This document shows positions 10,469 through 12,537 of a stretch of DNA of 47,951 bases, in pieces. Positions within the stretch are counted from its first letter, which is position 1. Each line of letters begins with the position of its first letter. Below the pieces are notes generated by a model. It was not told where the DNA came from. It was given only the letters and a program-made list of their open reading frames with translations, and ran no database searches. The stretch covers positions 1-47,951 of IMG/VR virus record IMGVR_UViG_3300033571_002253; one strand, written 5' to 3'. This stretch comes from a virus. A program made the translations under genes and the position numbers.

Positions 10469-11293
10469 ATGGACAATAACCCACTAAAGCAGTATTTTCG
10501 TAGACCGGCAGTTTATATAAGATTACCTAGCAAAGGTCTTGATTACCCTGAAGGCTCATTAGAAATGCCAGAAAACGGAGAACTACCTGTTTATCCTATG
10601 ACCGCTATAGATGAAATAACAAGCAGAACACCAGATGGTTTATATAATGGAGCAGCCGTTGTAGAAATTATCAAAAGTTGCATACCTAATATAAAAAACC
10701 CATGGCACATCAGTGCTTTAGACTTAGATACTGTGTTGTTGTCTATTAGAGCAGCATCAGGTGATGGAAAACTTGATGTTCAAACTACTTGCGAAAAATG
10801 TGAAAATCAAGATGAGTACAAAATAGATATACCTGCATTGCTTGCAAATTTGTCTAGCGGCAATTATAACGAAGAATTGGCACTAAATGACTTGTTGATA
10901 AAGTTTAAACCAATCAAGTTTTTAGAAATCAACCAAGCAGCATTAACACAATTTGAAGTAAGTAAGTCAGTTGCTAAAATCTCAGAAGCATCATCTAAAG
11001 AAGAGATAATGAAAGTCAGTCAAGATGCGTTAAAAGCAATCACTGAACTTACAATGCAAATAGTAGCAAAAGGCATAGAATACATCAAAACACCTACGCA
11101 TGTAGTAACAAATTCAGAATACATTCTAGACTTTTTGTCGAACTGTGATAAAAATACATATATTGCTATCAGAGATTATAGTACCGACTTAAAGGCAAAA
11201 TCTGAAATAAAGCCAATGCAAATCACTTGCACTAATTGCAATCATCAATTCGAACAAAAACTTACATTGAACCCTAGCGATTTTTTCGGTTAA
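10469..11293 (+). CDS. 26: gp26-like baseplate/tail-assembly protein with paired zinc-finger cysteines
   Basis: A 274-aa protein of the T4 gp26 baseplate family (T4 gp26 is 208 aa). Recognisable features are YFRRPAVYIRLPSKG at the N-terminus, YPMTAIDEI near residue 42 and SALDLDTVLLSIRAA near residue 82. Cys108-x2-Cys111 (CEKC) and Cys254-x2-Cys257 (CTNC) could form one four-Cys zinc site joining the two ends. The gene begins after a good ribosome binding site (AGAGGA). Its last codons are GAT TTT TTC GGT TAA, which hold a T TTT TTC slippery heptamer, and the following gene begins in the -1 frame at the stop. A -1 shift would give a fusion of about 349 aa, as in G/GT tail-assembly chaperones. 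Location next to the divergent tape measure fits such a role. Confidence 0.8.
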   Translation: MDNNPLKQYFRRPAVYIRLPSKGLDYPEGSLEMPENGELPVYPMTAIDEITSRTPDGLYNGAAVVEIIKSCIPNIKNPWHISALDLDTVLLSIRAASGDGKLDVQTTCEKCENQDEYKIDIPALLANLSSGNYNEELALNDLLIKFKPIKFLEINQAALTQFEVSKSVAKISEASSKEEIMKVSQDALKAITELTMQIVAKGIEYIKTPTHVVTNSEYILDFLSNCDKNTYIAIRDYSTDLKAKSEIKPMQITCTNCNHQFEQKLTLNPSDFFG

Positions 11294-11308
11294 TGCTTCT
11301 TGCGTTAA
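11281..11308 (+). promoter_or_regulatory. Candidate -1 programmed ribosomal frameshift site
   Basis: T TTT TTC occupies 11281-11287, with the zero frame reading GAT TTT TTC GGT TAA. The -1 frame then reads CGG TTA ATG and runs straight into the small ORF at 11293 with no stop. A seven-pair stem (11290-11296 with 11302-11308, one T-G pair, five-base loop) begins a few bases downstream and might stimulate the shift. The heptamer fits the X XXY YYZ rule exactly. Confidence 0.6.
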
Positions 11309-11517
11309 AACCAGAAAAAATCAAGAAGCTATTAGATACATACGACAAAGAAGTTATAGAAATAAAGGCATCGTGCCTTAGGTTAGCCTGGTATATGAGA
11401 GGTAGTGTCTCATATACCGATGTTCTGAATATGAGTTCCATGGAAAGAGAAGAAATAAACAAGATAGTAGAAAAGAATCTAGAGACTACAAAAAGTTCGG
11501 GTATTCCTTTCGTTTAA
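11293..11517 (+). CDS. Small tail-assembly protein, positional counterpart of gp51
   Basis: A 74-aa protein starting MLLALKPEKIKKLLDTYDKE and ending with KNLETTKSSGIPFV. It is mostly helical. Its ATG overlaps the stop of the gp26-like gene (TAATG), in the -1 frame. In T4, gene 51 adjoins gene 26, but T4 gp51 is 249 aa and I see no clear sequence match. Two modes of expression are possible: re-initiation at the TAATG overlap, or -1 frameshifting at 11281-11287, which would make this segment the C-terminal extension of a chaperone fusion. Both could operate. The gene is real by context, spacing and composition; its function is inferred. Confidence 0.75.
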   Translation: MLLALKPEKIKKLLDTYDKEVIEIKASCLRLAWYMRGSVSYTDVLNMSSMEREEINKIVEKNLETTKSSGIPFV

Positions 11518-11523
11518 TTGTCA

Positions 11524-11972
11524 GTTGGCCAGGGGCCAACTCTGTACTCGCTATCGCTCGTCCAGTAGTTTTATTTAAAATTTACGGTCTTATAGATTTA
11601 ATGGGCTTGTTTTAATGATAATCTTTTCGAAACACTTGCCGCTCTGAAGCCATGGTAGTGCTATTCAGCACTACCACAGTTTGGACTTGCCTGCCCGTCA
11701 TCCGTGACGCTTCTTCCCGTATAGTCGCCTACTATTGACACTATACGCCACCGGTTGCCCTGTAAAGTTTATGGACTGTAGTATGGGGATAATATCCCAG
11801 CAACGCATGTTACATATCCGCAAAGCGTAATAAGATATGTACTCATTGAGGGTTCGCACAAACGAGAGCCCTCTCGGTGTTCGATACACATATTTCTATA
11901 TGCATCCAATACTCCAGATCTGCAGGCGACTGTCTACACAGGCTTGCTCAAGGAGGATAGGACTTTCCTATC
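11524..11972. ncRNA. Hairpin-dense gene-free interval, candidate structured RNA
   Basis: The interval 11518-11985 between two convergent genes has no convincing ORF on either strand and looks richer in G+C than its neighbours. It holds at least nine simple stems: 11524-11540 (7 bp), 11653-11676 (10 bp, perfect), 11696-11709 (5 bp), 11718-11747 (8 bp), 11786-11798 (5 bp, nested within GTTGC 11754-11758 / GCAAC 11800-11804), 11812-11840 (7 bp enclosing CGC-AAA-GCG), 11848-11873 (5 + 4 bp), 11889-11902 (5 bp) and 11956-11972 (7 bp). Only one or two would be needed as terminators, and none has a clear T tract. I could not match it to tRNA, tmRNA, RNase P or a group I/II intron core. Strand is undetermined, because the stems work on both. 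Confidence 0.5.
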
Positions 11973-11985
11973 AGACGAATTGTTA

Positions 11986-12537
11986 TTACCCTAAAGTGTT
12001 TAATTCTATTTTATTTGACTTGGTGTCTGTATTACTGCAATATGCTTTAAGAAGGTCTTTGTTTAATTTAAAAAAATGTTCCCATTCAATTATAATCCAG
12101 TCTTTGTATTTTGCACTAGTATAATATAAAAATCTATCTGTTATCCATGTAAGATTTGTTGGCACACAGACAAAACGGCCTTTTCTATTAAACTTCATGA
12201 AAAGAATATTTAAGTCGTTTTCTTCTGCAACAGCCATCATTTGGTCAAGCCATGCATCTAATGTTTTACAGTCTCCTGTCAATACTTGATGAAATGGAAA
12301 ATCGGAATAACTCTTACACTCAGCATTCATTTTGCTAAAACTTTGTCCGGGCACGATATCACCTTTGAAACTGCGTATCTGCCCTTCATGTAAAATTTGA
12401 GTTCGCTGCTGGTTCTTGCCGCCCACATACGCACCAGAGCCCGGAGCACGAATAAAACTTTCACCATAGAGTTTACTAAGGTATATGGCTACTTCGCGCT
12501 CAAAACTATTTCCCTTTTGTTTTTGTGGATTAGGCAT
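11986..12537 (-). CDS. Holliday-junction-resolvase-like PD-(D/E)XK nuclease
   Basis: A 183-aa protein. The N-terminus KGNSFEREVAIYLSKLYG, followed by RAPGSGAYVGGKN, is typical of archaeal-type resolvase or related phage endonucleases. Probable active-site residues are Glu13 or Glu15, Asp60 in FKGDIV, and Glu73 and Lys75 in AECKSY, the PD-(D/E)XK pattern. Such enzymes cut branched DNA to clear replication and packaging substrates; T4 uses the unrelated gp49 for this. It is followed on the same strand, upstream in transcription, by gp46, gp47 and gp55, so a shared role in recombination and replication is likely. Box GATAAATT lies five bases before the ATG, although AGAG in that spacer could also act as a weak ribosome binding site. 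Confidence 0.78.
   Translation of the reverse strand: MPNPQKQKGNSFEREVAIYLSKLYGESFIRAPGSGAYVGGKNQQRTQILHEGQIRSFKGDIVPGQSFSKMNAECKSYSDFPFHQVLTGDCKTLDAWLDQMMAVAEENDLNILFMKFNRKGRFVCVPTNLTWITDRFLYYTSAKYKDWIIIEWEHFFKLNKDLLKAYCSNTDTKSNKIELNTLG

Follow-up and report, generated by a model that had tools for sequence, protein, structure and literature searches.

The question raised by this locus is what occupies positions 11518-11985 of the window, the window being the whole 47,951-nucleotide stretch of virus DNA analysed here (IMG/VR record IMGVR_UViG_3300033571_002253). A sequence-only reading had described this interval as intergenic and hairpin-dense, richer in G+C than its surroundings and without a supported ORF, and had put it forward as a candidate new phage structured RNA. 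The interval does lie between convergent genes, one ending at 11517 on the plus strand and the other at 11986 on the minus strand. Its G+C content is 0.43-0.47 vs about 0.28-0.37 across most nearby DNA, and its folding outperforms that of dinucleotide shuffles (plus strand, z -3.2; minus strand, z -4.0). On the evidence of sequence comparison, which supports that proposal, 11636-11957 is an intergenic RNA gene, conserved and noncoding, of about 320-340 bases and read from the minus strand.

The locus and the extent of the RNA

The genes and elements of the locus are the following:

10469-11293, plus strand: baseplate hub gene, T4_baseplate/gp26-like
11293-11517, plus strand: small convergent gene that follows the baseplate hub gene
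11523-11541, unstranded: hairpin AGTTGGCC/GGCCAACT directly after the convergent gene, found by alignment in the same place in relatives with its stem sequence changed
11636-11957, minus strand: core of the conserved structured RNA, type 1, with an 81-pair structure; cmsearch with covariance model R1, whose 47 source sequences include that of the window, gives 271.5 bits over the full length (1-337)
11986-12537, minus strand: gene for a PDDEXK_15 endonuclease of the RusA-like resolvase family, oriented like the RNA and with its stop codon 13 bases upstream of the RNA's 5' hairpin

Past the endonuclease the minus strand carries SbcC/SbcD-like (gp46/47) and gp55-like sigma genes, and the RNA is located at the 3' end of this gp55-47-46-nuclease operon, facing the convergent baseplate-hub genes. 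With its 5' hairpin it extends over about 11636-11972. The left part of the interval (about 115 bases, 11518-11635) contains two terminator-like hairpins and is outside the conserved RNA, as this is formed by 11636-11957; by blastn of relatives the conserved part starts near window position 11634. The hairpin at 11542-11565, with a conserved loop and a variable stem (TCGCTATCGCTC / TCACTTCGTTC), has one copy in the window and is found after the convergent gene in most relatives. A repeated ACAGAACCCT motif was observed between the nuclease stop and the RNA in L006, L007, L015, L067, L069, L098 and L116.

None of the six frames is conserved open across 102 homologues, the maximum being 2 open, and the lengths of these 102 are even over the three remainders modulo 3; with no open frame kept, a missed protein is ruled out. 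A small ORF at the 3' AUG (CCAUGGCUUC) was ruled out by eye because indels do not preserve its frame. A role of CCUCCUUGAG as anti-Shine-Dalgarno is unlikely, since its CUCC pairs with GGAG and co-varies with it (L197; helix 1). Pairwise identity averages 71% over the RNA, compared with 69% over the nuclease gene and 59-60% over the two convergent genes, and conservation of the RNA is at least equal to that of its neighbouring genes.

Fold, covariation and strand

The predicted fold is compact and multi-branched, comprising 81 pairs in 13 helices, two long-range pseudoknots and long invariant unpaired stretches. Its elements are given in window positions:

11956-11972, minus strand: hairpin GATAGGAAAGTCCTATC at the 5' end, immediately preceding the core, with a GGTCGAGG-type stem in relatives and compensatory variation at columns 350/358 and 352/359
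11912-11955, minus strand: 5' module, helix 1 (11952-11955/11912-11915) around helix 2 (11938-11943/11926-11931), also in type 2 RNAs
11883-11906, minus strand: helix 3, a variable hairpin with full covariation (double changes in 7/7 pairs)
11749-11879, minus strand: helix 4 (11875-11879/11749-11753), which closes the multi-branch core
11848-11873, minus strand: helix 5 enclosing helix 6 (GAGGG/CCCUC; UCG/CGA), cells 100% paired, double changes in 4/5 and 2/3 pairs
11807-11846, minus strand: helix 7, a long hairpin that contributes its loop to pseudoknot 1, double changes in 10/11 pairs
11707-11828, minus strand: helix 8, pseudoknot 1 (11823-11828 with 11707-11712), 100% paired, double changes in 5/6 pairs
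11754-11804, minus strand: helix 9 (11799-11804/11754-11759) and the variable hairpin helix 10
11715-11775, minus strand: helix 11, pseudoknot 2 (11773-11775 with 11715-11717), double changes in 3/4 pairs
11719-11746, minus strand: helix 12, a covarying hairpin, double changes in 9/11 pairs
11653-11676, minus strand: helix 13, the near-invariant GGUAGUGC/GCACUACC hairpin, followed by the conserved CCAUGGCUUC...CGGCAA 3' end

One type 1 RNA (L158:1767-2262) has a helix 10 longer by about 140 bases.

The sequence-only reading had proposed that relatives be aligned and examined for compensatory changes, which mark a structured noncoding RNA. In alignment A2, formed by 47 diverse sequences and separate from the alignment used for the blind score, such change is massive: both sides are changed in 56 of the 81 pairs, compared with 39 after shuffling and 20-30 in slid controls, and doubly changed cells number 574, vs 152 and 47-87 respectively. 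Paired cells reach 96.7% for the structure vs 31-44% in slid controls, a percentage that favours the structure over its slid versions because it was derived from the same sequences; the double changes and the blind ranking are much less affected. A pairing-blind score over 55,698 column pairs places 18 of its top 20 and 35 of its top 50 inside the structure, the top column pairs being stacked Watson-Crick helices, two of them long-range and crossing others.

Two of the stems picked out from the window by eye, GTTGC/GCAAC and ACATATC/GATATGT, correspond to helices 9 and 7 and both covary, and GGGAT/ATCCC is present as a variable hairpin. The inner CGC/GCG and the pairing of GAAG (11646-11649) with CTTC (11710-11713) are not supported, however, as both use bases that covariation assigns to the pseudoknot 11707-11712/11823-11828. 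The minus strand, exact ends, pseudoknots, spread in jumbo phages and second class go beyond that first description.

The strand was identified from the G-U pairs. At the pairs of the structure, read on the minus strand, there are 139 G-U vs 25 A-C cells, and in the top pairs from the pairing-blind score 69 vs 12. This excess indicates that the RNA is read off the minus strand, as the nuclease operon is. A plus-strand reading is ruled out, since folding on that strand would give the reverse asymmetry.

Distribution in jumbo phages and a second class

More than 150 IMG/VR contigs have a type 1 homologue in this gap, most of them from T4-like jumbo phages and the largest 525 kb long, and the fold is preserved among more than 100 related uncultivated giant phages. 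Searches with the two flanking proteins gave 84 IMG/VR loci, most with a gap of roughly 400-600 bases between the same genes. The pattern for the near-invariant hairpin (helix 13) matched at least 120 IMG/VR stretches; a further pattern, based on the central part of the RNA, recovered largely the same contigs plus additional ones among the matches listed. Once near-duplicates were removed, 102 distinct type 1 sequences were left. In the profile search the element is in the same gap, beside the post-gp26 small gene and/or the upstream nuclease wherever these are within the fetched DNA, and the distance from the upstream stop to the core is 7-54 bases in almost all loci. Four contigs of 259-525 kb were searched and contain exactly one full-length copy each.

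In cultured phages no homologue was identified by blastn of the phage collection, and the covariance models found neither type 1 nor type 2 in SCTP-2, Phosso, Paride and Atu_ph07, which have related nuclease or hub genes. GTDB genomes gave no exact pattern match in a scan that detects only copies with the near-invariant hairpin. Pseudomonas phage Paride (L208:2294-4483) presents more than 1 kb between the hub and resolvase genes, with mostly very short doubtful ORFs and no match to either RNA model. In relative L022 (5047-5655) the flanking genes are the same and the 609 bases between them match neither of the two classes, which may point to a third class or to a loss.

The second class (type 2) was found from the divergent loci L074 and L082 through pattern GGTACNGGTCAACCGCCTCC, which matches at least 120 IMG/VR contigs. 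It is a large, conserved and divergent class in the same slot of other jumbo phages, with an invariant GGGGGUACNGGUCAACCGCCUCC (L218-L337, e.g. L219:2242-2558) and a structure of its own, where 26 of 57 pairs show double changes. Among 130 type 2 loci, the hub or small gene is nearby in 98 and a PDDEXK gene in only 23, many loci ending before either gene is visible. The two types do not occur together in any of the large contigs tested: none of 9 with type 1 has the type 2 pattern and none of 8 with type 2 has type 1. The two profiles do not recognize each other over their full length. The 5' module is common to both, as seen in partial R1 matches with compensated pairs at type 2 loci L074 and L261 (E 0.014 and 0.05). 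Types 1 and 2 are taken to be orthologous in position and probably related, the likeness between their profiles being limited to this module. The blind strand test of type 2 gave 14 G-U and 14 A-C, and its strand was assigned from the 5' module that both types have and from the way it is oriented compared with type 1.

The gene before the RNA is less constant. A GIY-YIG-type protein is directly upstream in four of five examined type 2 loci (L219, L289, L232 and L287), the two that were tested both matching SegE_GIY-YIG, and a GIY-YIG-like protein was recognized by eye upstream of the type 1 RNA in L141. The nuclease is thus exchanged, PDDEXK_15 vs SegE-type GIY-YIG, and the RNA stays (L141:6718-7161, L219:1802-2230, L287:1305-1763). 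An RNA that keeps its place at the operon end while the preceding gene changes would be either a gene of its own or a processed 3' UTR. Radical-SAM-like proteins were observed by eye just before the nuclease in L219, L289 and L141.

Known RNA classes and the proposed role

A covariance search against Rfam, including GOLLD, ROOL and group I introns, had also been suggested from the window. With Rfam 15, cmscan identified no family in the window at gathering or E-value threshold, nor in relatives of both types at E-value threshold; the best hit, a CRISPR-repeat model (E 1.8), was taken as chance. A literature search, with subscription papers and preprints mostly outside its coverage, gave no description of this RNA. 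No known RNA family contains it; viewed more broadly, it can be placed next to GOLLD and ROOL among the large phage RNAs.

GOLLD and ROOL are large pseudoknotted phage RNAs without coding capacity and of unknown function (PMC12286853). As large, pseudoknotted, noncoding phage RNAs they are the nearest analogues in kind, but the present RNA fails their covariance models in Rfam. GOLLD is often over 800 bases long whereas the present RNA has about 330. Both are usually near tRNA islands; in contrast, ARAGORN identified no tRNA within the 48 kb window, and the present RNA is at the gp46/47-gp26 boundary of T4-like jumbo phages. OLE and raiA-motif RNAs are well conserved, elaborate bacterial RNAs, and OLE forms a ribonucleoprotein complex. 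The present RNA is likewise conserved and elaborate, but OLE and raiA are cellular and it matches no model in the Rfam copy used, which may or may not include raiA. The manA and wcaG RNAs are structured cis-regulatory leaders of marine (aquatic) T4-like phages; unlike them, the present RNA is not followed by a co-directional gene, and nothing in Rfam matches it. A group I intron is discarded by the Rfam result and by the intergenic position in all relatives, a tmRNA or tRNA-like element by ARAGORN and Rfam, and an OMEGA/TnpB-type guide RNA by the adjacent nucleases, which are PDDEXK_15 or SegE GIY-YIG and not TnpB/IscB.

The reading considered probable is that 11957-11636 (minus strand) gives a conserved noncoding RNA, produced by read-through and acting in trans in a structural or catalytic role. 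Transcription would proceed from the nuclease/gp46-47-gp55 operon, as the 5' hairpin about 13 bases after the stop codon leaves little room for a separate extragenic promoter. By eye, neither a consistent -10 box nor a late-promoter motif was found upstream of the RNA, which goes against a promoter just before it. The terminal hairpins would then free or protect the RNA, and this would act in trans during infection, probably as a ribonucleoprotein core or an RNA-only assembly. A riboswitch or leader-type cis role is unlikely because no co-directional gene is downstream.

The best surviving alternative, though a rather unlikely one, is a cis-acting 3' UTR or boundary element, which by folding would shield the nuclease operon mRNA at its 3' end or insulate the two convergent operons. 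It fits the constant position of the RNA, type 2 included, behind a co-directional gene at the operon's 3' end, where it faces convergent genes and lies, almost always, a short distance from the stop codon. An RNA of this size, with two pseudoknots and long unpaired stretches that do not vary, nevertheless goes far beyond a stabilising hairpin, the convergent side already has a simple one (11523-11541), and type 2 RNA persists where other genes separate it from the hub genes or the nuclease. That the RNA is a guide or cofactor of the adjacent nuclease, or the remains of a homing element, appears improbable: a nuclease gene is directly upstream in almost all type 1 and several examined type 2 loci, but its family switches without change of RNA class, cultured phages carry the nuclease without the RNA, L268 has another gene in between, and the RNA is not scattered as a mobile element would be, the examined pattern matches being all at this locus. 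A functional single-stranded DNA structure, such as a replication or recombination site, would suit the adjoining gp46/gp47 recombination genes and the single copy per genome, but is very hard to reconcile with G-U pairs kept on one strand only, a mark of RNA folding.

With a trans-acting RNA as the preferred reading, types 1 and 2 may, with confidence about evenly balanced, be the founding members of a superfamily of large trans-acting RNAs, a vertically inherited core gene of natural T4-like jumbo phages that functions either as a ribozyme or as the RNA at the core of a phage ribonucleoprotein. Large RNAs with elaborate structure are seldom found as new classes, and several earlier examples proved to be ribozymes, cores of ribonucleoproteins or cages made only of RNA. 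The present RNA occurs in many uncultivated jumbo phages, is as well conserved as the protein genes of the phage itself and, with its covariance model, strand and ends in hand, is directly testable. Annotation of jumbo phages by proteins only can miss a core gene such as this RNA.
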